Source of the DNA: an uncultured Neomegalonema sp.
Lineage (GTDB): Bacteria > Pseudomonadota > Alphaproteobacteria > Rhodobacterales > Rhodobacteraceae
Reading direction: 5' to 3'
NCBI GenBank assembly: GCA_937995735.1
Contig: CALKIZ010000111.1
Span: forward strand, 1-33,286
Length of the DNA stretch: 33,286 bases
The first letter of the stretch is position 1; every line of letters begins with the position of its first letter. This document shows, piece after piece, positions 6,599-23,446 of this stretch. The notes under the pieces are model-generated. The model was not told the DNA's origin, did no database searches, and worked only from the letters and a program-made list of their open reading frames with translations. Both the position numbers and the translations under genes were made by a program.

Positions 6599-8131
6599 CT
6601 ATTCAGTGCCGAACCCATCGCCAAACCCTTCGATCCAGAGAGTCAAAGCCTTTTCAGCTTGAGCAGCTTTTAGCTCATCCCAGATAGCAGCATTCTCGTC
6701 TTCATCGAAACGTGAAGAAAGACGTTCGGCAAGCAATCGCGAACTATGATCACCTCCCGCAGCGGCAAGCGTTGCCAACAGCAAAGCATGACCATAATTG
6801 CGCGAGGCTCCGCGACCATTCGCATATTGCCGAGCACTATTGCGAAGCGATGCAACATCCGCCGCCGGTTCGATTACATCACCCGCCTCGCCCGCTTGCA
6901 GATCCAGGATTGTCTCCAAATCCAGATCCGACTCAATACGGTCGAGAATATTGCGTGCCCCGGCCTCGCCCGCCTTACCCGCTGCAAGCGCATAGATATA
7001 GGCCACATTCAGGTCATCGCCTTGCCCATGTAGAAGGCTCGCATAATTCAGAGCCGCTTCAGAGTTACCGCCTTCAGCCAGCGGCTCCAGCAGTGCAGCG
7101 GCCTTGCCAGCCGAGCGCGGAACGCCTTCACCGGATGCCAATGCCATAGCTACTCTGAGTTGGTCCTTTGTGCTTAAGTCTTCCGGAGCGGCCAGCGCCA
7201 TCTTCAACTGTTCAGACGAAATCAAGTTGTCTGCCCCAACAAGTGCCGAAGAGAAGACAGGTTGTAGCAGTTCGATTAAATCCTCCGGTCCATTGCTTTC
7301 CGACAGTTCCTTAAAAGAAACCGCAACGCCCCGCCCAGAGCGCAGAGTCACCGCGCCGCCGTCTTCTACGACGCGAGCAAGTTCCGTATTAGCCGAGTCT
7401 ATTAAAGCCTCTTCTGCGTCGGAAATGCCCCCTTCAGATAAAACGCCGCCCATCGCGCCCGTTGCCATCGCGACAGGATCAGCTTCCAGTCCAAGAATTG
7501 GTAACATAGCACGTAAGGCTTCTGTATCTTGCAGCGTAACTTCAACCCGTGTGACATCACCGGCTGGTAATGGCTCACCGCGATTGTCAAATTCGAAATG
7601 TAGACCGTCCAACTGCGTATTGATTGAAATTGAGCCAGCGGCGGCGGTTTCAATCAGCATAGAATGATCAAGTGAGGATTGCCCGATGTGATAACTTGTT
7701 GTCGCCGAATAATGCGTCACATTCATCGCGTCCGGTCCAAGGATAGACTGGATAATGGCGCTTTGCTCACCTGCACATGCCGGGTTGACTTCAATTCCAT
7801 CGCCTTCGGAGGCAAATGACAGGTTGTCAGGGCGATCAAGTCCCACGACCGTCATTGCATCAACTTTCACTGTGCAGCCGGTAATGCCAGACGCTTCTGG
7901 TAAAGTGATCTCAATGCCACGGATACTGAAATCGCCCGTGCGATCATCCAGAACCAAATCATCATACGTCACATCCATGACTGAACGCATACTCATGATG
8001 CTTATCTGAGCCGCACCGCGCGCGATGCGTTCACTGTCTAAATCGCCGCCCGCCGCGAACAACGCAACAGGCGCTACCGAACTCATCATGAATGACATCA
8101 TCATCGGTGCGATAAATAATGCAGATTCCAT
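6599..8131 (-). CDS. Exported protein with C-terminal Sel1-like repeats
   Basis: A 510-residue protein. Residues 1-28 (MESALFIAPMMMSFMMSSVA and following) form a hydrophobic, Met-rich signal or anchor. The middle (about 30-310) is an acidic, beta-rich domain I do not recognise, with motifs such as DVTYDDLVLDDRTGDFSIRG. The C-terminal part has Sel1-like helical repeats at about 325-396 (ALASGEGVPRSAGKAAALLE, then the next helix pair) and 429-475 (ARQYANGRGASRNYGHALLL). Sel1 repeats mediate protein contacts. The ATG at 8131 has GGGAGAG upstream; a longer in-frame extension lacks a ribosome site and would run into pgk. Located 34 bases after pgk, so probably co-transcribed; function unknown. Confidence 0.8.
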   Translation of the reverse strand: MESALFIAPMMMSFMMSSVAPVALFAAGGDLDSERIARGAAQISIMSMRSVMDVTYDDLVLDDRTGDFSIRGIEITLPEASGITGCTVKVDAMTVVGLDRPDNLSFASEGDGIEVNPACAGEQSAIIQSILGPDAMNVTHYSATTSYHIGQSSLDHSMLIETAAAGSISINTQLDGLHFEFDNRGEPLPAGDVTRVEVTLQDTEALRAMLPILGLEADPVAMATGAMGGVLSEGGISDAEEALIDSANTELARVVEDGGAVTLRSGRGVAVSFKELSESNGPEDLIELLQPVFSSALVGADNLISSEQLKMALAAPEDLSTKDQLRVAMALASGEGVPRSAGKAAALLEPLAEGGNSEAALNYASLLHGQGDDLNVAYIYALAAGKAGEAGARNILDRIESDLDLETILDLQAGEAGDVIEPAADVASLRNSARQYANGRGASRNYGHALLLATLAAAGGDHSSRLLAERLSSRFDEDENAAIWDELKAAQAEKALTLWIEGFGDGFGTE

Positions 8132-8165
8132 TTTAACTCTCCCACACACTCTACAGAGCAGGAGG

Positions 8166-9356
8166 CTATCCCCCCAGCACAGCAACACCGGGTAGTGTTT
8201 TCCCTTCGAGCCATTCGAGGAAAGCACCACCAGCAGTAGAAACATAACTGAATCGATCTCCTGATCCAGAAGCATTTAATGCTGCGACAGTATCTCCCCC
8301 TCCGGCGACAGAAAGGAGAGCACCGGATTCTGTTAAATCAGCCGCAGCCTTGGCCGCCGCATTGGTCGCCATATCAAACGGTTCAATTTCAAAAGCACCG
8401 AGAGGGCCATTCCAAACAAGGGTTTTCGACGCCTTAAATCTTTCAATAATAGTGGCAACACTCGCGGGGCCAGCATCGAGGATCATCATATCTTCAGGGC
8501 AAGCACTGGCGGGAACAGTTTTATTCGGCGCGTTCGCCGCAAATGCTTCGGCAACAACGACATCAGTTGGCAAAATAAGGTCACATTTCGCCGCTTCAGC
8601 CCGTCCCATGATCTCACGGGCTGTATCGAGCATGTCATGCTCACAAAGAGATTTGCCAACCGAATGGCCCTGAGCCGCAAGGAAAGTGTTCGCCATACCG
8701 CCGCCGATCACAACAGCATCGACTTTCTCCAGCAAGTTGCCGATCAAATCGAGTTTCGTCGAAACTTTCGCGCCGCCAACAACCGCAACAACCGGACACT
8801 CTGGAGTCGAAAGTGCATTCTCTAAAGCGGTCAATTCAGCAGCCATCCCCAGCCCGGCAACTGTTGGCAGATGATCAGCAAGCCCAACCGTCGACGCATG
8901 TGCGCGGTGTGCAGCAGAAAAAGCATCACTGACGAAAACATCACCATTCGCCGCCAATTGTTTGGCAAACGTAGGATCATTTTTCTCATCGCCCGCATGG
9001 TAGCGGGTATTTTCAAGGAGTAAGATTTCGCCTTTGCCCAGAGCCGCGACCGCAGCTGACGCCGCTTCACCAATGCAATCTCCGGCAAATTTTACAGGTC
9101 GGCCAGAAGCATTTGCGAGGGCATCTACGACAACTGCTAAAGACATTTCCGCCACGCGCTGTCCTTTTGGGCGGCCAAAATGTGCCAACAGAATTGGCTT
9201 TCCATCTGCCGCAATCACGGCCTCTACAGTAGGTAGAATACGGCGAATGCGCGTATCATCCGTCACACGGCTCCCATCGACAGGGACATTCAGATCAACG
9301 CGGATCAAGACGCGCTTTTGGGAGAGGTCAACATCGGCAAGGCTGCGGTGTGTCAT
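8166..9356 (-). CDS. pgk: Phosphoglycerate kinase
   Basis: A 396-residue enzyme moving phosphate between 1,3-bisphosphoglycerate and ADP in glycolysis and gluconeogenesis (cytosol). Seen: [20 protein letters not shown] near the N-terminus, [72 protein letters not shown] and the C-terminal ATP loop [13 protein letters not shown] chose the ATG at 9356 because the family starts about nine residues before the KRVLIRVD segment; an in-frame GTG at 9386 adds ten unusual residues. It follows gap in the same direction, with a small exported-protein gene in between. Length is normal. Confidence 0.98.
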
Positions 9357-11966: not shown

Positions 11967-13991
11967 TTGACGGTCAATCAAGCCCTAGTAGTAAATGCGC
12001 AAAGAGTATCACGCGCCGCAGTAGTTTGTATGACACTACTGGTGGGTGGATGTACTTCAATCTCTGACACCCCCGGTTTCTCGGGGCTATTTGGTCCAGA
12101 AAACCCTGTTTTGGCTGGTGATCCAACTGCGCAAGCAGGTGTTGAATATAAAATCTCCGTGCGGGGCTTAGGCGTTGGGGATAGCCCAGAAGAGACCGCA
12201 GAAAACCAGCGAATGCTTGAGATCATCAAATCACAGGCACGGGTTTATAAACTTCAGGATACTCCCCCTCCCTCTGTTGCTTTGCTAAAACGGCGTGCAA
12301 CCTCCGATGTTGCATTGGTTGAGCGCGCCCTAAAATCTGAGGGTTATTACGAGGGGATGGCGGTGATCACCGTCGATGAGTTCGATAAAAGTGCCCCCCG
12401 GTCGGAAGCGGTACGTGACGCCGAGGCTTTCGCCAATACGGCAGAAAAAAATGAGAACGATAAACCCGTTTTTGCTGACATTGCTGATCCAGACGCGCCT
12501 CCTGTCGTCAATATTTTTGTCCGTAAAGGCCCTCGATACTCATTGGCTCAGCAAGGGGTGATCATCGAACCACCAGTCGCCTCGGACGTGGCAGAACGGG
12601 TTCAAGAGGCAGCGGCGATAAATGTTGGAGGGCCAGCTCAAGGCCGCGCCGTTGTCGATGCAGAGCAAGCAGCACTCGGAGCACTAAACCGCGTCGGTCG
12701 CCCCTATGCCAAGAAAGGCAAACGCAGAGCCGAAGCGAACTTCGATTTTGATACTCTCGATGTCATTACAAAACTCGATGCCGGTCCACTCACTGTCTAC
12801 GGTGATACAAAAATTGTTGGCTTGCGCGATGTTGAAGAAAAGTATGTACGCGACTTCATAACCTGGAAAAAAGGCGATCCGGTATCGCGCGGAACCTTGC
12901 GCGATGCTCAACGCGCGCTTTCCGGCACGCAATTATTCGACTCTCTTACAGTCGAAATCCCGTCTGCGCCACCTGAAGACCATCCAGAAAGCGAGCCTTA
13001 TGTCGCGCCAATCCTGATCACAGCTGAAGAGGGTAAACACCGCACCATCTCTGGCGGCGTCAGCTTTTCAACATCCGATGGTGCCGGAGTTACCGCAAAG
13101 TGGCAGCATCGCAACTTACTAGGCCAGAACGAACAACTGACCTTAGAGGCAGAAATCGATCAAGGCCGACAAAGTGCCGAAATTGATTACGTCAAACCAA
13201 GGTTTGGAAAACCTACCCGCGATCTCGTTGGTAATCTCGAAGTATTTCGCGAACAAGATGAAGCCTTCGATGTCTTGGGAACAACTGGCACGATTGGCAT
13301 CGAAGAACAAATCAATGAACACCTCAAAGGATCAATCGGACTTGGTTTAGAAGCCGCTCAAACAAGAGAGAATGGTCAGACCCTTGACAGTTACCTTTTC
13401 GGATTGCCGCTTACACTCGCTTACGACAACACGGATGATTTATTAGATCCTACTGAAGGGCTACGCGGGTCGGCACTTATCGCGCCTTGGGCAGGGCTGT
13501 TTGACGAGCAGGAAGCCGGTTTTGTCATCGTCGATCTTAGTGGTTCAACATATATCCCTTTTGATCGCAGAAGAAATTATGTATTGGCGACACGCGCCCG
13601 CACCGCAGCAGTCTTCGCTGAAAGTCGTGATCGCGTACCCGCGAACAGACGGCTTTTCGCTGGCGGTGGCGGCTCAGTTCGCGCATTTGAAAACCGCTTT
13701 GCCGGCCCGCTAGATGATGAAGATGATCCAACCGGAGGCCTGACAGCTGCGGAATTGAGTGTAGAATTACGCGCCCGCTTCGGGTCCTTCGGCGTTGTGC
13801 CGTTTGTTGATGCCGGGATCGTCAGTGAAGAACTCTTCAGCGAATACGATCAAATTCGCTATGGTGCTGGCCTCGGATTACGCTATTTCAGCCCAGTCGG
13901 ACCAATCAGGGTCGATGTAGCGGTTCCAATCAACCGCAGAGACGCAGATCGATCCTTTCAGTTTTATATCGGCATTGGGCAGGCTTTTTGA
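11967..13991 (+). CDS. tamA: TamA, Omp85-family outer-membrane assembly protein
   Basis: A 674-residue Omp85 protein. N-terminal export signal (RVSRAAVVCMTLLVGGC, Cys29 in a lipobox-like VGGC context), POTRA domains roughly 50-350 (KSEGYYEGMAVITVDEFD; LDAGPLTVYGDTKIVGL; DAQRALSGTQLFDSLTVEIP), then a 16-strand surface-antigen barrel from about 355, starting RTISGGVSFSTSDG, with the lid-loop motif GGGGSVRAFENRF (the VRGF counterpart) and the terminal Phe of QFYIGIGQAF. With TamB it builds the outer-membrane end of a pathway for barrel-protein insertion and lipid movement. The start appears to be TTG 11967 after GAGG; TATAAT at 11946-11951 may be its -10. It overlaps tamB by one base. Confidence 0.92.
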   Translation: MTVNQALVVNAQRVSRAAVVCMTLLVGGCTSISDTPGFSGLFGPENPVLAGDPTAQAGVEYKISVRGLGVGDSPEETAENQRMLEIIKSQARVYKLQDTPPPSVALLKRRATSDVALVERALKSEGYYEGMAVITVDEFDKSAPRSEAVRDAEAFANTAEKNENDKPVFADIADPDAPPVVNIFVRKGPRYSLAQQGVIIEPPVASDVAERVQEAAAINVGGPAQGRAVVDAEQAALGALNRVGRPYAKKGKRRAEANFDFDTLDVITKLDAGPLTVYGDTKIVGLRDVEEKYVRDFITWKKGDPVSRGTLRDAQRALSGTQLFDSLTVEIPSAPPEDHPESEPYVAPILITAEEGKHRTISGGVSFSTSDGAGVTAKWQHRNLLGQNEQLTLEAEIDQGRQSAEIDYVKPRFGKPTRDLVGNLEVFREQDEAFDVLGTTGTIGIEEQINEHLKGSIGLGLEAAQTRENGQTLDSYLFGLPLTLAYDNTDDLLDPTEGLRGSALIAPWAGLFDEQEAGFVIVDLSGSTYIPFDRRRNYVLATRARTAAVFAESRDRVPANRRLFAGGGGSVRAFENRFAGPLDDEDDPTGGLTAAELSVELRARFGSFGVVPFVDAGIVSEELFSEYDQIRYGAGLGLRYFSPVGPIRVDVAVPINRRDADRSFQFYIGIGQAF

Positions 13992-16900
13992 TGATAGGTT
14001 CCATGGCCAATTGGTGCAAAAAGACCCTGCTGGCAAGCACTCTAGCGCTTGGCTTGGGCAGTGTAACAACACCAGCTCATGCTTTTTTGGATTCTGAAAA
14101 AGCGTGGAACGATCTTCTTCAATTCGCCGTCCGGCAGATCAATGCACCGGGTGAGTTTGAAATCGAACTCGGCAAAGTGACCAAGCCAAAAGATGGTTTT
14201 GCATTGATCTCATCGCTAAGAATTCGCGATGCTGACGGGATTTGGCTCGATGCCAACGGATTGTTGGTGGATTGGAATCCTACATCATTGCTGCGAGGCA
14301 GATTTGTTTTTGAAACGCTTTCAGCAGATGAAATCAATGTATTACGCGCTCCGATTGGACGCGGTGATCCTCCGGGTGAAGAAGCACAAATCGACTTCGC
14401 ATGGCCTCGGCCTCCAGTAACAATGATCGTTGAAACCATGTTGATAAAGCGCATGATCATTGCTGGCGGCTTACTCCCGCAAGACTTCGAAGCCCGCATC
14501 GAAGGCCGCTTTTCGGATAGAGGCGACATTCAGGAAACAACGCTTGGCGTCAAGCGTCTCGACCGCCCCGGAGATTCGATTGATCTGGGTACGCGCATTG
14601 ACTTTGACGATCTCGATATTTCGTTCTCACTCGAAGCAGCCGAAGCTCCGGGCGGATTGGTTTCAGAAATTGCGGGGCTACCCGAAACTGAAGCGCTTGA
14701 AATTACAGCAGCAGCGTCCGGTAACCCTGACTCGCTTCCCTTCTCAATTTACGCCGATATCGGACAAATCGGCATTGCTGATGGTGAAGGCGTCGCGCAA
14801 TGGAAAGACAGCATCGCTGTCACTTTCAATGGCGAAGTCAGTCCCGGAGATAAAACGGCTGGGCGTTGGCGTAATGCGTTGGGCGATGCGGCTCGATTGA
14901 AGCTCGATGCTGAACAAACGGACTCGGGGGGCTATCTCCTCAATCAGTTTCAAATCGACAGCGAAGCCTTCGGATTTCAAGGTAAAGGCGCTGTTGATAC
15001 CACTGCAAACACGATTGATCTCGCATTCGATTGGTCAGCTAAGAAAATTGATGCACTCAACGCTGTTATTGCGCCAGCTCGGGTCGGTGCGCTTACCGGC
15101 AAAGCAACCGCCATTGGCGCGCTAAATGCACCAAAAGTCGATGTTGATGCCGTTGTCCGTGATCTAACCGCAGGTTTCGGCTCTATAGACGCGATGGATT
15201 TGCGGATTAATTCACAGCCGCAAAGCGATACATCCTCGCAAACACAACGGTTTTCATTTGCGGCCAAGACCGATGGTCTCGCTCTTAAAGACGACGCTTT
15301 GCAACAGGCACTTGGCGAGACGCCTTCATTTTCCGGCAACGGGGCGTTTTTTGGAGCAGAGAACCGTGTTGCACTTGAGACGGTGCAAATTGCAGCAAAG
15401 ACTGTCGATCTCGAAGGCAACGCCGATTATGACTTATCGGATGGATCTCTCAACGCTGAACTGACAGGCGCAGCAACGAACCTAGGCCCATTTATGCGCG
15501 CTGCTGGCCTGCCTGTAGATGGTGCTGCAGACCTCGCTTTGAAAATCAAAAACCTGACCAACGAGAGTGTCGAGCGGCTGTTCTTAAATGCACAACTTTC
15601 GCAGCTTTCATCTGAAGACCGTAACTATGCGGCAATTATCGGCGAGACGGCGGTTTTAGAAGCTCTATTGGTAGAAGCCGATCCCGGCATTGTGAAAGTC
15701 GAACGCGGATTTTTCGAAAGCGCGACGCTCCGCACTGAAGCCAAAGGACAGTTCTCCATTCCTTCAGACTCTGTAGATTTAGAGTTAGATTGGCGGTTGA
15801 AAGATGCCGAACGAATCGCGCCGGTAATCGAGCCAACTACGCTGGGAGGAGCCGAGGGCAAAGCGATCCTTGAAGGCAAATTGTCCGAACCGAAAGTCGA
15901 CATCGAAGCAGTGGTAACGGATATTGACTCTGAAGGTTATGGCGCATCCAGTGCAGAAGTGACCTCCAGCCTGCAAATGCGTAAAGATTTGCGCGCACCA
16001 TTTTCGATGACAACAAAGCTGGAAGGTTTCCGCGCTCCTGATCCTACATTAGCCGCACTTGTTGGCCCAGAAGCTGAAATCAAAGCAACCGGAATATACG
16101 ACACCGCAACGTCACTCCTGACCCTATCAGATTCCGCAGCAGCAATCGCTGCAGGGGATTTCACTCTGAAGGGCGATGTTCACCTCCGCAAACAAACATT
16201 GGACGCGGCCTACACTCTCAAATCGCGCGACCTTGCCGCGCTGGGTGAAGCAGCCGACGTTGAAATGAACGGCATCATTAATGCAGAAGGTACGGCGACC
16301 GGCCCCTTCACCGCACCGTTGGTTTCTACCCGTGCCGACATCCGAAATCTTGATCTTTATGGATACTCAGTCGATGCAATGGACCTCGACCTGACGACAG
16401 AACCTGCGAACGAAGACGGCGATGTACCGTTCCAGATAGATATGACTGCAAGCAACCCGTCATTGGGAGATGCAGATCTTGATGCTTTGATCGGAACCGC
16501 CCCGAAAATTGTCGGCTCGGGCACGTTTAACCCGGTCAAAAAACGTGCGTCCATTGAGTCTTTTTCTGCAGAACTAAGCACGATCAACGCAACAGCAAGT
16601 GGCGATGTTGATGTCCAGAACAGTAACCTTGATCTGAATTTCGATCTCGATGCGAGCGATCTCAGCGGATTGAGTGGTTTAATCGGCACAGAAATGACGG
16701 GCGCTATAAAAGCGGGCGGAAGCGCGAAAGGCTCATTTTTCTCGCCGGAAATTGATATTGATCTAGACGGCAATCAGCTTCGTTATGGCGATTATCGTGT
16801 TGGTGAAATTGCTGGCCGCCTTGATGTCAAACAAGCGCTCATCGGTTATGCCCCATTCGACGTTGATGTAATTGCGCGCGATGTTGATCTTGGTGATCCA

Positions 16901-19900
16901 TCCCTCAATGATTTGATCGGCCCCCGTGCCGAAATTAAAGCAAAAGGTGAGTTCAACCAGCTTGCGAAAGCGCTGCGCTTGGAAAGCGCCCGCTTTGATG
17001 TCGCGGCGGCTAAAGGAACCGCCTCTGGGTCTGTCGATCTCTCGAACGAAAACCTCGATCTCACCTATGATATCGACGTGGACAAGCTGCAGCCTATTGG
17101 TGACGTCGCCGGACTGGACCTCGCGGGTTCAGTCGCCGCAAAGGGTAGCGCAAAGGGCAGTTTCACCGCGCCACAAGTCGATACGACGATCCAAGGTAAA
17201 AACCTGCGCTACGAAAATTACGCGGTTGATGCCGTCAATGGCACGATTGATATCAAGCAATCCCCCACCGGATTTGCGCCATTCAATATTGACGTTGAAG
17301 CAACGGGCGTTGATCTTGGTGATCCATCGTTGAACGCCCTCATCGGACCGCGCGCCGAAGTGACGGCCAAGGGTGCGTTCAATCAATCTGAAAAAGCTCT
17401 GCGCCTTGAGAGTGCTTGGTTTGATATCGCTGCGGGCAATGGAACTGCTTCCGGCTCTGTCAATTTGGCAAAGCAAACGATGGATATGGTCTACGACGTT
17501 GATGTCAGCGAATTGGAACCGATTGGGGATATTGCCGGGGTTAATCTAGCCGGTGCAATTGCTGCAAAGGGTAGTGCAAAAGGCACGTTCACTGCGCCTG
17601 AAATCGATACAACACTGCAAGGTCGTGGTCTTCGCTACGAAAATTACGCGGTTGATGCCGTCAATGGCACAATCGATATAAAGCAATCTCCCACCGGATT
17701 TGCGCCGTTCAACATCGACGTTGAAGCAACGGGCGTTGATCTCGGCGATCCATCGTTGAACGCTCTCATTGGACCCCGCGCCGAAGTAACGGCCAAGGGC
17801 GCGTTCAATCAATCGGAAAAAGCCCTACGCCTTGAGAGTGCTCGTTTTGATATTGCTGCGGGCAATGGAACCGCTTCCGGCTCTGTCAATTTGGCAGAGC
17901 AAACGATGGATATGGTCTACGACGTTGATGTCAGCGAATTGGAACCGATTGGGGATATCGCCGGGGTCAATTTAGCCGGTGCGATTGCCGCAAAGGGAAG
18001 CGCAAAAGGCACGTTCACTGCGCCTGAAGTCGATACAACACTGCAAGGTCGTGGCTTGCGGTATGAGAACTACGCAGTTGATGCCATCAAAGGCACAATT
18101 GATATAATGCAATCTCCCACTGGATTTGCGCCGTTCAACATCGACGTTGAGGCAACGGGCGTTGATCTTGGTGATCCGTCTCTGAATGCCCTCATCGGAC
18201 CCCGCGCTGAAGTGACGGCCAAGGGTGCGTTCAATCAATCAGAAAAAGCTCTGCGTCTCGATAAGGCTCGTTTTGATATTGCTGCGGGCAATGGAACCGC
18301 TTCCGGCTCTGTCAATTTGGCAGAGCAAACGATGGATATGGTCTACGACGTTGATGTCAGCGAATTGGAACCGATTGGGGATATTGCTGGGGTGGATTTA
18401 GCCGGTGCGATTGCCGCAAAGGGCAGTGCAAAAGGCACGTTCACCGCACCTGAAGTCGACACAACACTTCAAGGCCGTGGCCTTCGCTACGAAAATTATG
18501 CGGTCGATGCCATTAATGGCGCGATTGATATAAAGCAATCACCTACTGGATTTGCACCGTTCAATATTGATGTTGAAGCAACAGGCGTTGATCTTGGTGA
18601 TCCATCCCTGAATGCTCTTATAGGCCCCCGAGCAGAAGTCACAGCCAACGGCGCGTTCAATCAATCGGAAAAAGCTCTCCGACTTGAGGGCGCTCGTTTT
18701 GATATCGCTGCGGGCAATGGAACCGCTTCCGGCTCTGTCAATTTAGCAGAGCAAACGATGGATATGGTCTACGATGTTGATGTCAGTGAATTAAAACCGA
18801 TTGGGGATATTGCCGGGGTCAATCTATCCGGTGCGATTGCCGCAAAGGGCAGCGCAAAAGGCACGTTCACTGCGCCTGAAATCGACACAACGCTTCAAGG
18901 CCGAGGCTTACGGTATGAAAATTACGCGGTTGATGCCGTCAATGGCACAATCGATATAAAGCAATCCCCCACCGGATTTGCGCCGTTCAATATTGACGTT
19001 GAAGCAACGGGCTTCGATCTTGGCGATCCTGCACTGACCGATTTGATTGGTGATAAAGCGACAATCAAGTCCTCAGGAGCGTATAACCAAGCCGATCAAA
19101 TTTTGCGAATTGATAGAGCCGGTGTCACCTCTGCCGCCGCGACTGCAAATGCAAACGGGTCAATCAACATAGGCAAGCAAACCCTAGACGTTGATTTCGC
19201 GCTGGACGCGGCAACGCTTTCGCCGCTCAGACCAATCCTTAAAACAGAGATCGCGGGCGCTCTATCCGCAACAGGGTCTATCGGCGGATCATTTGCCGAA
19301 CCTGCCTTGAGAACAAAACTCAACGGCACTGGATTGCGTTATGACAAATATCGAATTGCCGATGTGAATGGTTCTTTTGATGTTACTAAAAAATCAAACG
19401 GCGCATCTCCTTTTGATATTGATGTCACCGCAAGTGGACTGGACTCAGGTGATCCGAACCTAAACAATGCCTTGGGCAGCACCGCTTCAATCGCAGCGAC
19501 AGGCGATTATAATCTGGCATCGCAAGCACTCGGCCTTGATAGTGCGCGGGTTATTACGGATGCCGCTCAAATTGCGGCATCAGGAAAAGTAAACCCAGAC
19601 AAGCAAACACTCGACATCGCTTATGACATCGATGCGAAAGATCTAACGCTCTTCTCTGCAATCGCAGGAAACGGGTTGGGCGGCGCGTTAAAAAGTTCTG
19701 GTCGCGCATCCGGGTCATTTACCGCACCTCAAATCAATGCAAACCTAAACGGCCAAAGCCTGCGTTATGGCCCCTATTCCATCGCACAAATCAACGGACG
19801 GATAGACGTTGCACAAGGCGTAAACGGACCCGCTCCGTTCGACATAGATGTGACCGCCAGTGGTATAGACCTTGGTGATCCAAATCTGACCAACGCTGTC

Positions 19901-22900
19901 GGGTCAACAGCCGCGATTGTTGCCAAAGGTTCATTCGATCAGAGCGCACAAATTTTAACACTGGCAAGCGCGAGCGCGACTACGAATGCTGCACGGGCCA
20001 GCGCCTCGGGAACGGTAAATCTTAAAGCGCAAACGCTTGATGTCAGCTATGATGTGGATGCAGGTAATCTTGGTGCTTTTGCACAAATCGCTGGCGCTGA
20101 TATTGGCGGATCACTTAGCGCAAAAGGACGAGCCGTTGGGCCATTTGTCACCCCAGCAGTCAACACGACTTTATCGGGGCGCGAATTACGATATGGGATC
20201 TATAGCGTAGGTAGCGTCGATGGACAGATCGAAGTTCCTCAATCAAGCGCTGGCCTCGCGCCGTTCAATGTAGACGTCAGAGCGAGTGCCATCAGCACAG
20301 GCGACGCCGCCCTCGACGCGCTGATCGGCGACACCGCGCTTATCCGTGCAAATGGACGGATCGACCAACAAGCACAAATCTTAGAATTAACCGACGCCGT
20401 AGCCTCTACGCGCACAATGACAGCAGGAGCACGTGGACGGGTTGACCTCGGCAATCAACAACTCGATGTAGCGTTCGAGGTTGATGCCGCCGATATCGCG
20501 CCAGCGACTGGCCTTGTTGGAAAATCGGTCGGTGGCAAGCTGCAAGCAACTGGCACTGCAAAAGGGCCTTTCACCGCACCAATTCTAAACTTAGATGCTG
20601 TTGGATCAGGTCTCTTTTACGATAAATACAGTGTCGGGCAGCTTAGTTTAAATCTGACCATGGACAGTACGAACGGCAATGTCACGCCGTTCACACTCGC
20701 CACAAATGCCTTCGCGCCGCGCATCGGCAACCCTCAGATCGAAGCATTGCTGGGCGAGACCGTTACAGTTGATGCGCGCGGAACACTAGATCAAAAAGCA
20801 CTGTTGCTAAGATTGGATGACGCGACAGTAAGAGCCTCCGCCGGAGCCGCTCGCGTCGCCGGACTTGTTGATATTCCTGGCAAGCAACTTGATGTAGGTT
20901 ATTCCGCACATCTGCCAGCTCTCGGTGCGCTTCAACCTCTCGTCGGCCAGACAATTTCAGGAGACTTGCGTGTCGATGGCCGTGCTCTTGGTGGTTTCGA
21001 TGATCTTGATACGAGCGGTATCCTGGTGGGGTCAGGTGTCGTTTTTCAGACTTATGAATTCTCTAGCGTTGTCGCCAGTTACGACCTGAAAAACTTGCTC
21101 ACTGGACCGCGCGGCGGTGTTTCACTGGATGGTCAAACACCATTTGGGCCAGTCACAGCTAATGCAGGCTTTGATCTCAGTGGGGGCTCACTTCGAATTG
21201 ATCGCTTGATGGTCAATGGACTGGGCATCGATCTGGATGGTACATTCGAGACACTACCGGGCGGTCTTTACGCCGGTGACGCGCGTTTAAACGCCACTGA
21301 TCTTAGCGCGCTTGGTCAGTTCGTGGGGCAAGATATCGCGGGAAGTGTGAATGGGACCGTCAGCCTCAATGGTCAAGATCACAGGCAAAATGCGGTCTTT
21401 GATCTGAATGCAAACAATGTCCGCTATGCTCAACTTGCAACGATTGGAACCGTGGCTCTTAAAGGGTCTGTTATTGATGCTTTGAACCGCGACCCATATT
21501 TGAACGCAGAAATGTCAGCGACATCCGCTGTCGTATCAGGCTTTGCGGTCAACCAAATCGCTGTCAATGCAATCGGTAATTTATCCGCCCTCCGAGCAAC
21601 CGTCAACGCTTCCGGCGGCGAGACGGGATCGGATAAACTCCAGACAACAGGGATATTCAACCTCATCAATGTACCGCGAGGAGCACAGATTTATACCCTT
21701 GGCGCAAGTTTCAAAGGCGTTCAAATCGCCTCTGCTTCACAATTCAATATTCAGGAAATTCCTGTCGGCGGTGTCCGAGCGACTGGTTTGAATCTGCGAA
21801 TAGATGACGGAGAAGTCGTCGGGGATGCTGAATATACGCCCAATGGCCTCGTAGCAAAACTACGAGTCCGAAACGTCCCAATGAAACTGACGCAGCTCGC
21901 TGGTATCGATTTAATCCAGAGTGGCCGTCTTTTTGGCGACATGGACATAGATACGCGCGGCGCTCCGCGTGGTTCGTTTATGTTCAATGCTAATGTTGTT
22001 CGTCTAAAAGGCGCACAATTAAATGATCCGTTTGATTTTTCGGCGAGCGGAACACTTGATGGGCAAGCAATGGACATTGTGGCTACGGCCAGCAGTGGCA
22101 TCATCAATCAACCCTTTAAGGCCATCGCGCGTATCCCGTTGAAGCAATTACCGGGCGTTCCGGTTCCCGTCCCTGATCAATTCGCTCCTTTCTCAGCGAG
22201 TATGGACTGGCAAGGTGATGTTGCAGAATTTTGGGCCTTCGTTCCCGCACCGGATCACGTCTTATCTGGCCCAGTCGTAATTAACGGACGCGCCGATGGT
22301 ACGTTGAGCGCACCTCGATTGGAAGGCGGTGCAGTCCTTACGGGTGGCCGCTATCAAAACCTCGAGTTTGGAACACTTCTCGATCAGATCAATATGACTG
22401 GTAACTTTACGCAAGACGGTCGTGTCGTGTTTGACCTCACTGCAACCGATGGCGTGCGAGGCACTGTCGCAGCCAAAGGCTCGTATGTCGTTGCGAATGG
22501 GACGATTGATGCTGGTATCAATCTCAATCAAGCCGCTCTCGTCAGGCGGGATGATGCTACAGCAGTGCTTTCCGGTGAAGCAACCGCGAGAAGCGAAGGA
22601 CAGGATATTGCCGTTCGCGGTGCTTTCCGGACTGACTTTGTTGAACTCCGGCTTATCGGTGGCTTTGGCGGATCAGTGATTGTCGTTGATGCCATTCCCG
22701 TTGGTGAAACAGCACCGCGCTTTAACCCGCCAAGCGAAAGTGGCCCTACACAACGAATCTCGCTTGATGTCTCACTCGATTTTCCACAACAGGTCTTCGT
22801 GCGTGGTCGGGGTTTAGACTCTGAATGGGGCGGGCGTATTCGAGCGACAGGCTTCGCAAGCGATCCTCAAATTAACGGTCTGATTGAACGCCGTCGCGGA

Positions 22901-23446
22901 TGGCTTGATCTCCTCGGTCGCCAATTCGAACTCGCAATTGGAGAAGTTCGGTTTACTGGCCCGCTTGATCCATTCATTCGCGTTCGCTTGCAGCGCGCGT
23001 CAAACGATATAACAGGCTGGCTCGATGTTACGGGTCCAGCGTCGGATATTGAACTCGAGTTCGGCTCTATCCCTGCTCTTCCACCAGATGAAGTTTTACC
23101 ACGTCTCTTGTTTGGTCGCTCAAAACAATCTTTGAGTGCGATTGAAGCTGCGCAACTGGCCGCAGGTGTCGCTACGCTGTTGTCTGGTAAAGCTGGCGCG
23201 CTCGACGCGGTACGCGGTGCGCTCGGCGTTGATGTCTTGCGCGTTGAAGGTGGTGACGGCGACGGGGCCACCATTGCCACCGGAAAATATCTTACTGAAG
23301 ATATATTCGTAGGGGGCAAACAAAACCTCGAAACAGGTGGCACGTCCGCGTTCGTAGAAATCGAAGTCTTCGAAAACTTCGAAATCGAAGGTGAATTTGG
23401 TGAAGACGAAGCCGAAGGCAGTGCGAGCTGGAAACTTGACTATTAA
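13991..23446 (+). CDS. tamB: Giant TamB (AsmA-like/DUF490 superfamily), 3151 residues with 142-residue repeats
   Basis: An inner-membrane-anchored periplasmic protein partnering TamA. An N-terminal anchor or signal (KKTLLASTLALGLGSVTTP) is followed by a long beta-rich region and ends in the TamB C-terminal domain (about 2900-3151), with QVFVRGRGLDSEWGGRI, GEVRFTGPLDPFIRV and LPRLLFGRSKQSLS. E. coli TamB is about 1259 residues; this one is 2.5 times longer. The excess is largely tandem repeats: residues about 790-2352 hold eleven units of exactly 142 codons, each carrying LRY.xY, APF.IDV.A.G.DLGDP.L, LIG, A.G.xNQ and G.F.AP elements; four are nearly identical. The family forms a hydrophobic beta-taco groove carrying phospholipids across the periplasm. 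The ATG at 13991 overlaps the tamA stop (TGATG), so the genes are translationally coupled; ATG 14003 is an alternative. Confidence 0.93.
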   Translation: MIGSMANWCKKTLLASTLALGLGSVTTPAHAFLDSEKAWNDLLQFAVRQINAPGEFEIELGKVTKPKDGFALISSLRIRDADGIWLDANGLLVDWNPTSLLRGRFVFETLSADEINVLRAPIGRGDPPGEEAQIDFAWPRPPVTMIVETMLIKRMIIAGGLLPQDFEARIEGRFSDRGDIQETTLGVKRLDRPGDSIDLGTRIDFDDLDISFSLEAAEAPGGLVSEIAGLPETEALEITAAASGNPDSLPFSIYADIGQIGIADGEGVAQWKDSIAVTFNGEVSPGDKTAGRWRNALGDAARLKLDAEQTDSGGYLLNQFQIDSEAFGFQGKGAVDTTANTIDLAFDWSAKKIDALNAVIAPARVGALTGKATAIGALNAPKVDVDAVVRDLTAGFGSIDAMDLRINSQPQSDTSSQTQRFSFAAKTDGLALKDDALQQALGETPSFSGNGAFFGAENRVALETVQIAAKTVDLEGNADYDLSDGSLNAELTGAATNLGPFMRAAGLPVDGAADLALKIKNLTNESVERLFLNAQLSQLSSEDRNYAAIIGETAVLEALLVEADPGIVKVERGFFESATLRTEAKGQFSIPSDSVDLELDWRLKDAERIAPVIEPTTLGGAEGKAILEGKLSEPKVDIEAVVTDIDSEGYGASSAEVTSSLQMRKDLRAPFSMTTKLEGFRAPDPTLAALVGPEAEIKATGIYDTATSLLTLSDSAAAIAAGDFTLKGDVHLRKQTLDAAYTLKSRDLAALGEAADVEMNGIINAEGTATGPFTAPLVSTRADIRNLDLYGYSVDAMDLDLTTEPANEDGDVPFQIDMTASNPSLGDADLDALIGTAPKIVGSGTFNPVKKRASIESFSAELSTINATASGDVDVQNSNLDLNFDLDASDLSGLSGLIGTEMTGAIKAGGSAKGSFFSPEIDIDLDGNQLRYGDYRVGEIAGRLDVKQALIGYAPFDVDVIARDVDLGDPSLNDLIGPRAEIKAKGEFNQLAKALRLESARFDVAAAKGTASGSVDLSNENLDLTYDIDVDKLQPIGDVAGLDLAGSVAAKGSAKGSFTAPQVDTTIQGKNLRYENYAVDAVNGTIDIKQSPTGFAPFNIDVEATGVDLGDPSLNALIGPRAEVTAKGAFNQSEKALRLESAWFDIAAGNGTASGSVNLAKQTMDMVYDVDVSELEPIGDIAGVNLAGAIAAKGSAKGTFTAPEIDTTLQGRGLRYENYAVDAVNGTIDIKQSPTGFAPFNIDVEATGVDLGDPSLNALIGPRAEVTAKGAFNQSEKALRLESARFDIAAGNGTASGSVNLAEQTMDMVYDVDVSELEPIGDIAGVNLAGAIAAKGSAKGTFTAPEVDTTLQGRGLRYENYAVDAIKGTIDIMQSPTGFAPFNIDVEATGVDLGDPSLNALIGPRAEVTAKGAFNQSEKALRLDKARFDIAAGNGTASGSVNLAEQTMDMVYDVDVSELEPIGDIAGVDLAGAIAAKGSAKGTFTAPEVDTTLQGRGLRYENYAVDAINGAIDIKQSPTGFAPFNIDVEATGVDLGDPSLNALIGPRAEVTANGAFNQSEKALRLEGARFDIAAGNGTASGSVNLAEQTMDMVYDVDVSELKPIGDIAGVNLSGAIAAKGSAKGTFTAPEIDTTLQGRGLRYENYAVDAVNGTIDIKQSPTGFAPFNIDVEATGFDLGDPALTDLIGDKATIKSSGAYNQADQILRIDRAGVTSAAATANANGSINIGKQTLDVDFALDAATLSPLRPILKTEIAGALSATGSIGGSFAEPALRTKLNGTGLRYDKYRIADVNGSFDVTKKSNGASPFDIDVTASGLDSGDPNLNNALGSTASIAATGDYNLASQALGLDSARVITDAAQIAASGKVNPDKQTLDIAYDIDAKDLTLFSAIAGNGLGGALKSSGRASGSFTAPQINANLNGQSLRYGPYSIAQINGRIDVAQGVNGPAPFDIDVTASGIDLGDPNLTNAVGSTAAIVAKGSFDQSAQILTLASASATTNAARASASGTVNLKAQTLDVSYDVDAGNLGAFAQIAGADIGGSLSAKGRAVGPFVTPAVNTTLSGRELRYGIYSVGSVDGQIEVPQSSAGLAPFNVDVRASAISTGDAALDALIGDTALIRANGRIDQQAQILELTDAVASTRTMTAGARGRVDLGNQQLDVAFEVDAADIAPATGLVGKSVGGKLQATGTAKGPFTAPILNLDAVGSGLFYDKYSVGQLSLNLTMDSTNGNVTPFTLATNAFAPRIGNPQIEALLGETVTVDARGTLDQKALLLRLDDATVRASAGAARVAGLVDIPGKQLDVGYSAHLPALGALQPLVGQTISGDLRVDGRALGGFDDLDTSGILVGSGVVFQTYEFSSVVASYDLKNLLTGPRGGVSLDGQTPFGPVTANAGFDLSGGSLRIDRLMVNGLGIDLDGTFETLPGGLYAGDARLNATDLSALGQFVGQDIAGSVNGTVSLNGQDHRQNAVFDLNANNVRYAQLATIGTVALKGSVIDALNRDPYLNAEMSATSAVVSGFAVNQIAVNAIGNLSALRATVNASGGETGSDKLQTTGIFNLINVPRGAQIYTLGASFKGVQIASASQFNIQEIPVGGVRATGLNLRIDDGEVVGDAEYTPNGLVAKLRVRNVPMKLTQLAGIDLIQSGRLFGDMDIDTRGAPRGSFMFNANVVRLKGAQLNDPFDFSASGTLDGQAMDIVATASSGIINQPFKAIARIPLKQLPGVPVPVPDQFAPFSASMDWQGDVAEFWAFVPAPDHVLSGPVVINGRADGTLSAPRLEGGAVLTGGRYQNLEFGTLLDQINMTGNFTQDGRVVFDLTATDGVRGTVAAKGSYVVANGTIDAGINLNQAALVRRDDATAVLSGEATARSEGQDIAVRGAFRTDFVELRLIGGFGGSVIVVDAIPVGETAPRFNPPSESGPTQRISLDVSLDFPQQVFVRGRGLDSEWGGRIRATGFASDPQINGLIERRRGWLDLLGRQFELAIGEVRFTGPLDPFIRVRLQRASNDITGWLDVTGPASDIELEFGSIPALPPDEVLPRLLFGRSKQSLSAIEAAQLAAGVATLLSGKAGALDAVRGALGVDVLRVEGGDGDGATIATGKYLTEDIFVGGKQNLETGGTSAFVEIEVFENFEIEGEFGEDEAEGSASWKLDY
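16358..21043 (+). repeat. Eleven tandem 426-bp units inside tamB
   Basis: A Tyr codon (a Phe at the last boundary) that follows LR or a similar pair recurs with exact 426-base spacing; its middle base falls at 16359, 16785, 17211, 17637, 18063, 18489, 18915, 19341, 19767, 20193, 20619 and 21045. The units at 17210-18913 (four copies) and the first about 100 bases of the next one are nearly identical; outer units are diverged but keep the length to the codon. Upstream of 16358 the pattern continues with a unit of 420 bases, so the register is lost there. Confidence 0.93.

Follow-up and report, generated by a model that had tools for sequence, protein, structure and literature searches.

The window, i.e. 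the whole stretch of 33,286 nucleotides from an uncultured Neomegalonema species (Alphaproteobacteria) that was analysed here, encodes a giant TamB protein, about double the usual length, carrying twelve tandem units of about 142 residues. Neomegalonema marks the extreme of a tendency found across its family, in which TamB and the needle of PqiB both often grow by tandem units. Across the family the lengths of these two proteins rise together; of all the results this co-variation is the strongest and the most open to testing, and it hints that both lengths follow the width of the gap between the membranes.

Identification of TamB and its genomic surroundings

The tamB gene (13991..23446, +; 3151 aa) begins at an ATG that overlaps the stop codon of tamA and ends with its stop at 23446; the mechanical ORF call begins at the TTG at 13988. 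The C-terminus of its product corresponds to the Pfam TamB domain (PF04357, residues 2817-3152, 136.8 bits against a gathering cut-off of 22.4, E 1.5e-39). No reliable Pfam match was obtained for the middle of the protein, where a POX match stayed under the cut-off. With the NCBIfam model NF047952 (autotransporter assembly TamB, equivalog) a score of 279.5 bits was reached, and since the cut-off is 825 bits the protein was not assigned to this equivalog. Only a single TamB match is present in the genome of the window. By eye, the N-terminus resembles a cleavable signal peptide ending in AHA.

The gene directly upstream encodes an Omp85-family TamA (11967..13991, +; 674 aa listed; PF01103, E 2.3e-49, 169.1 bits). 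Its listed start is a TTG and the real start possibly lies further downstream. The product scored 128.8 bits with the NCBIfam TamA model and 145.4 bits with the BamA model, each under its cut-off. Together, the PF04357 C-terminus and the upstream TamA gene mark the product of 13991-23446, as judged from sequence, as a genuine TamB, and the identity proposed in the earlier note was thus confirmed.

A lipobox-like cysteine (VGGC and variants) is found near the TamA N-terminus in the window, at six further loci (L031, L033, L035, L036, L039 and L045) and also in genome G017; it is missing from the TamA starts of L046, L047, L048 and L050. Neomegalonema TamA is possibly lipidated, comparable to TamL of Bacteroidota. 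The contig that carries tamA and tamB also encodes an MlaD-type protein with a single MCE domain (2255-2713, −). A 558-residue frame with no Pfam match (6599-8275, −) adjoins phosphoglycerate kinase, and the A+T-rich contig end (1-1404, 38% G+C), which encodes a SIR2-like protein (PF13289), differs from the remaining window.

The array of 142-residue units

Self-comparison of the TamB sequence gave peaks at offsets of 142, 284 and 426 residues (32, 29 and 25% identity), compared to 9.9% for the best offset that is no multiple of 142, and the signal at offset 142 lies 52 s.d. above chance. Eleven blocks of 142 residues occupy residues 767-2328 in the numbering of the listed ORF. With a repeat HMM, 12 full-length units were detected at 15857-20971, together with weaker traces ahead of them. 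Unit 1 (15857..16282, +) is strongly diverged (67 bits) and sits where ordinary TamB has its single recognisable unit, the eleven others being easily seen. Of the steps between unit starts in the window, one out of 11 is 143 residues and the rest are 142, the second unit (16283..16711, +), which has 143 codons in the HMM register, being ambiguous by one codon. The eleven blocks are in line with the landmarks on which the earlier note had based eleven units of exactly 142 codons, given there as recurring every 426 bases from 16359 to 21045 (16359 + 11 x 426 = 21045), but the count is 12 and not every step is exact. The repeat HMM further placed unit 3 at 16712..17137 (+), units 8-11 at 18842..20545 (+) and unit 12 at 20546..20971 (+). 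The array is framed by an N-terminal flank (13991..15856, +), homologous to ordinary TamB, and by a C-terminal flank with the PF04357 domain (20972..23446, +).

Of 98 unit-to-unit steps counted over the genus, 90 have a length of exactly 142 residues, six of 143 and two of 144. In two genomes of the N. perideroedes type, steps of 141 residues predominate (12 of 18), the others being four of 142 and two of 143. Units 4-7 (17138..18841, +) are 94-95% identical to their neighbours at the amino acid level, whereas all other units share 23-61% with theirs. Nucleotide identity among units 4-7 is 85-91%, and the longest stretch repeated exactly within tamB measures 119 bp. For these four units dN is 0.022-0.058 and dS 0.378-0.727 (dN/dS 0.04-0.12). 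The low dN at such dS indicates purifying selection, the copies having been apart for some time while constrained to one protein sequence.

Predicted fold of the unit

Structure prediction with AlphaFold2 was performed on units 8-11, four of the 12, using an alignment of 18 rows from the window and related loci (mean pLDDT 91.8, pTM 0.77). In the model the structural elements recur every 142 residues, and each unit consists of eight amphipathic strands and two short helices in strict register, arranged as two half-modules of four strands and a helix. Hydrophobic residues occupy 122 of 182 positions on the richer strand face and 42 of 186 on the other, an excess over 500 shuffles, and the strand-type hydrophobic moment at 160 degrees is 10.66 compared to 7.87 +- 0.24. 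The model thus agrees with the earlier proposal that the strict length reflects a structural rule, one unit being one set of rungs.

Among solved chains, the unit profile matched residues 566-645 of E. coli TamB best, though weakly (E 0.0049). Foldseek with VIA-align of the model returned long amphipathic beta sheets, with ApoB100 first but poorly superposed and solved TamB in 45th place; no clear match to a groove protein was listed. For the four modelled units, a long amphipathic beta groove is supported by prediction. E. coli TamB, of 1259 residues, is given as 17.8 nm long as modelled and 24.6 nm when stretched (PMC11014939), and the E. coli periplasm as 21-27 nm wide (PMC10897342). If length scales by residues from E. 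coli TamB, the window protein would be about 45-62 nm long.

Distribution of the array and origin of the extra units

A repeat HMM run over related genomes, a check suggested with the earlier note, recovered arrays of 8-13 units in the genus. All seven complete TamB sequences have the array, including that of the cultured type strain N. perideroedes DSM 15528 (L062). There are 12 units in the window, eight in G001, 12 in G003, nine in G005 and 13 in G009, while a metagenome-assembled genome (L057) and the type strain each have ten units above 60 bits and one at 51-53 bits. Over 3040 residues the TamB sequences of these last two, one from a MAG and one from an isolate, show 95% identity, and they end at matching positions. 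The TamB of G011 shows eight units in a frame cut at the C-terminus, and the remaining ones of the genus end at contig ends. As described in its genome report, the type strain forms non-motile filaments of irregular disc-shaped cells 1.5-2 um wide with lipid inclusions, and its genome was sequenced with Illumina technology (PMC4511698). The G+C content is 51% for the loci of the window genome (L080 and the window) and 60-68% for the other Neomegalonema loci L031, L033, L036 and L039.

When the unit profile was searched against 289 genomes of the class, 28 matched beyond that of the window, 27 with one match and one with two. Ten of those 28 were taken, and in all ten the TamB frame (1403-1866 residues) also matched the C-terminal flank of the window protein. 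Among the genomes sampled, the array is restricted to Neomegalonema; ordinary TamB shares the flanks and shows one or two recognisable copies at most. Relatives whose TamB is ordinary and lacks such units, named in the earlier note as an objection to its reading, were found only outside the genus.

In the TamB of G017, both flanks of the window protein align end to end, with the joint at frame residues 1253/1254 (by blastp, window residues 9-765 correspond to frame residues 474-1253). The only recognisable unit (29.6 bits) lies directly before this joint. Since the flanks meet next to one unit, the array represents extra length at one joint beside an ancestral copy. In a tree of units (142 columns, 90 rows, many of its forks weak), units 1-3 and 8-12 of the window group with the eight units of G001 and G011, while units 4-7 group beside unit 3. 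By this tree and by nucleotide identity, the window array is best described as the eight units common to G001 and G011 plus four whole units, 4-7, inserted inside. Two units of the same type as units 4-7 precede the contig end at L051, in a sister species. Whole-unit gain in the tree and the insertion joint in G017 agree with the earlier suggestion that the extra length arose by modular amplification.

PqiB, a second bridge built from units

The PqiB of the genus (L080, contig C3 of G000) contains three MlaD domains, and its residues 48-442 align in one stretch to residues 14-406 of solved PqiB. In the main clade the needle consists of tandem helical units of exactly 93 residues (loci L080, L112 and L113, examined along with the N. 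perideroedes variant). Four full units are present in G000, G001, G011 and G012, five in G003, G004, G008, G009 and G010, and six in G002, G005 being irregular. The needle of N. perideroedes is instead built of about five 30-residue units, so that within the genus the needle was lengthened by two unrelated units, of 93 and 30 residues.

PqiB frames are 951-1164 residues long in 11 genomes of the genus. A search of 37 genomes had suggested that long PqiB is special to Neomegalonema; this idea was dropped after 296 family genomes had been searched, frames of at least 951 residues being found in 22 of the 109 other genera listed. In the 54 other genera measured as described below, needle lengths tend to fall on a ladder that starts at 252 residues and climbs in steps of 93: 17 of 54 lie exactly on a step and nine lie 7 residues above one.

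Co-variation of TamB and PqiB lengths

Stop-to-stop frames may come out overlong where G+C is high. TamB length was therefore counted from a conserved N-terminal motif as far as the stop codon, while needle length began where the third MCE domain ends and likewise ran to the stop. The TamB frame list comprised 150 rows from outside the genus, taken from the best-scoring of 248 matching genomes, and 68 genera occurred in both length lists. For the measurement 61 were entered and 49 drawn randomly, to which seven with loci wholly or partly in hand were added. Two of the resulting 56 were dropped (G179, with TamB cut by a contig end, and G018, for which no TamB sequence was retrieved), leaving 54.

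Stop-to-stop frame lengths of TamB and PqiB correlate in the 68 genera listed outside Neomegalonema (Spearman 0.57). For TamB and needle in the 54 genera the Spearman coefficient is 0.58 (p 4e-6, bootstrap 95% 0.33-0.77) and the Pearson coefficient 0.66. Independent contrasts, on a tree built from the TamB C-terminus, the MCE part and TamA, gave r 0.52 (permutation p 1e-4). TamB length is itself correlated with G+C (Spearman 0.53), and allowing for G+C left partial correlations of 0.51 for ranks and 0.47 for contrasts. The TamA frame length, taken as a control, was correlated neither with the needle (-0.04) nor with TamB (-0.08). After removal of the two, five or eight longest TamB the correlation was 0.53, 0.45 and 0.41, respectively. 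Ten of 11 scorable independent close pairs changed in the same direction and one in the opposite, 16 being too small to score.

The slope is about 1.0 (OLS) to 1.5 (RMA) TamB residues per needle residue. A helix rises by 0.15 nm per residue. With this rise and the scale of E. coli TamB, straight geometry expects about 8-11 TamB residues per needle residue. The needle may therefore not be one straight helix, or TamB and PqiB may not share one distance. The longest other TamB proteins are those of G189 (2049 residues, period 169, needle 620) and G031 (2036 residues, period 167, needle 659). Off the trend are N. perideroedes, with a TamB of 2959 residues and a needle of 351, and G017, with 1554 and 136. 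Between the window and G001 the number of TamB units is 12 versus eight at PqiB lengths of 976 versus 981 residues, which rules out a tight ruler in which TamB is matched unit by unit to PqiB.

Internal periodicity of more than 5 s.d. was found in 32 TamB and 28 needles of the 54 other genera, the TamB periods lying near 60, 100, 109, 137, 167-172, 196 and other values; none was found in 54 locally shuffled TamB, 54 TamA or 54 MCE parts. Individual array periods are 169 at L156 (G189), 167 at L044 (G031), 109 at L124 (G083), 100 at L046 (G036) and 61 at L050 (G020).

Other envelope-spanning proteins

YhdP-like frames were obtained for six members of the genus, with 1302-1315 residues in G000, G003 and G005, 1356 in G002 and 1540-1549 in G004 and G009. 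Elsewhere they have 1112-1175 residues (G014, G017, G019) or 1316 (G018), where about 200 residues precede the homologous stretch. TolC frames are of ordinary length (475-550). For AsmA (PF05170) none of the 14 genus genomes gave a match over the cut-off, and a single weak match fell short of it. TonB and TolA, considered as additional yardsticks, could not serve as such, since TonB_C (PF03544) and TonB_2 (PF13103) gave no match in the same 14 (G000-G013).

Possible explanations of the long bridge

The main reading of these results is that a duplicated groove module lengthens the TamB lipid bridge, probably because the gap between the membranes is wider; to the wider gap as the reason an even chance is given. 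One 142-residue module was duplicated in frame, repeatedly, at one joint of an ordinary TamB. The beta-groove would stay continuous, so that phospholipid tails could still travel along it between the inner membrane and TamA. Behind the lengthening would be a membrane gap wider than usual, for which bridges must be longer, and PqiB would answer this demand by adding helical units of its own. Units in surplus of the gap width may be absorbed by supercoiling or tilting, so that the copy number could drift from 8 to 13.

This reading is favoured by the TamB-needle co-variation and by YhdP-like frames longer in the genus than in three other genera. Against it stand the slope, far from geometry, the eight versus 12 units at constant needle, and the fact that the PqiB of the genus is no outlier. 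Moreover, YhdP is only modestly longer, TolC is ordinary, and the correlation falls to 0.41 without the eight longest TamB. The wide periplasm that the earlier note considered is made likelier by the PqiB co-variation but no further than that, and for the adhesion-like or lipid-storage role considered alongside, nothing was found in support.

The main rival is a mutational ratchet, in which repeat-prone genes undergo tandem duplication that a flexible groove tolerates, and co-variation arises as some genomes duplicate more than others. It would account for the four-unit difference between close relatives at constant PqiB length, for the periodicity in so many other TamB and needles, for a slope that misfits geometry, and for the tracking of G+C by TamB length. 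However, the copies are under purifying selection, the correlation outlasts the corrections for G+C and phylogeny, TamA and MCE parts are free of periodicity, and the needle of N. perideroedes grew by a different, 30-residue unit; a ratchet is considered rather unlikely. Assembly could also produce a false expansion of repeats, as these are short-read assemblies and six of 13 genus contigs break inside the array. A longest exact repeat of 119 bp, a dS of 0.38-0.73 between units, the extra copies in the sister species L051 and the agreement of isolate L062 and MAG L057 over 3040 residues led to its rejection; the chance of such an artefact is minimal, and the misassembly that the earlier note saw as a danger to its reading very probably does not explain the array.

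Two further alternatives accept the longer groove. The gap could be wide only locally, with long bridges at the septa of disc-cell filaments, where the outer membrane leaves the inner one, and YhdP and TolC at an ordinary side wall. Both the filaments of irregular discs described for the type strain (PMC4511698) and the failure of YhdP and TolC to lengthen in proportion suit this idea, but long TamB and long needles occur in other genera as well, and it is considered distinctly improbable. Still less probability is given to a role in capacity or cargo instead of distance, by which the added groove length serves to hold more lipid or some special cargo, or the extra units bind peptidoglycan or other partners. 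Without an AsmA match over the cut-off in the genus, TamB may carry more load, and lipid inclusions are reported for the type strain (PMC4511698). Yet co-variation with the PqiB needle would not be expected from capacity, and G014, G015, G017 and G020 likewise have no AsmA match and nevertheless an ordinary TamB (1561 residues for the frame of G014).

The reading of a longer bridge across a wider gap can be extended to the family, where lipid bridges might be length-matched to the periplasm via whole units, which measure 142, 167-172, 60 and other numbers of residues in TamB and 93 in the needle. Neomegalonema, as the extreme case, might in some part of the cell or more have its membranes about 40-60 nm apart, double the E. 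coli distance. This extension is tentative and somewhat doubtful. If it is true, gene length would predict periplasm width from sequence. It touches on the way in which AsmA-like bridges cross the periplasm and on whether the periplasm sets their length, questions for which a length series is now available, with 8-13 modules of the same length in one genus, graded across the family, and a second, unrelated bridge moving along. Bridge length against gap width becomes a question for electron tomography, for which a type strain is in culture, and the regular module offers itself for structural work on lipid grooves.

Comparison with known systems

In the literature search, from which subscription journals and preprints were outside coverage, no description of TamB unit arrays or of TamB-PqiB length co-variation was recognised, nor, among 15 of 35 titles listed, any publication on the envelope ultrastructure of Neomegalonema. 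The window TamB shares with E. coli TamB (TAM complex, 1259 residues) the PF04357 C-terminus, the upstream TamA and a predicted groove of amphipathic strands; unlike it, the window protein is 2.5 times longer, has 12 tandem units and has a signal-like N-terminus (AHA). In VPS13 and other bridge-like lipid transfer proteins with a repeating beta-groove, length is set by the number of groove modules. TamB is classed with these bridge-like lipid transfer, or AsmA-like, proteins (PMC11014939). The window module, 2 x (4 strands + helix), differs from theirs in that its regularity extends to the single residue and its copy number varies within one genus.

E. coli PqiB is described as three MCE rings and a helical needle of about 230 A (PMC10897342). 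It resembles TamB as a trans-envelope lipid conduit that is lengthened by tandem units in the bacteria studied here, while its fold is unrelated. The long MlaD of Veillonella parvula is another protein, for which no tandem unit array is described in the parts of its report drawn on here (PMC10665443). As an unusually long lipid bridge it sets a precedent, in that its length has been compared with the periplasm, about 23.5 nm as modelled against a measured periplasm of 24.2 nm (PMC10665443).
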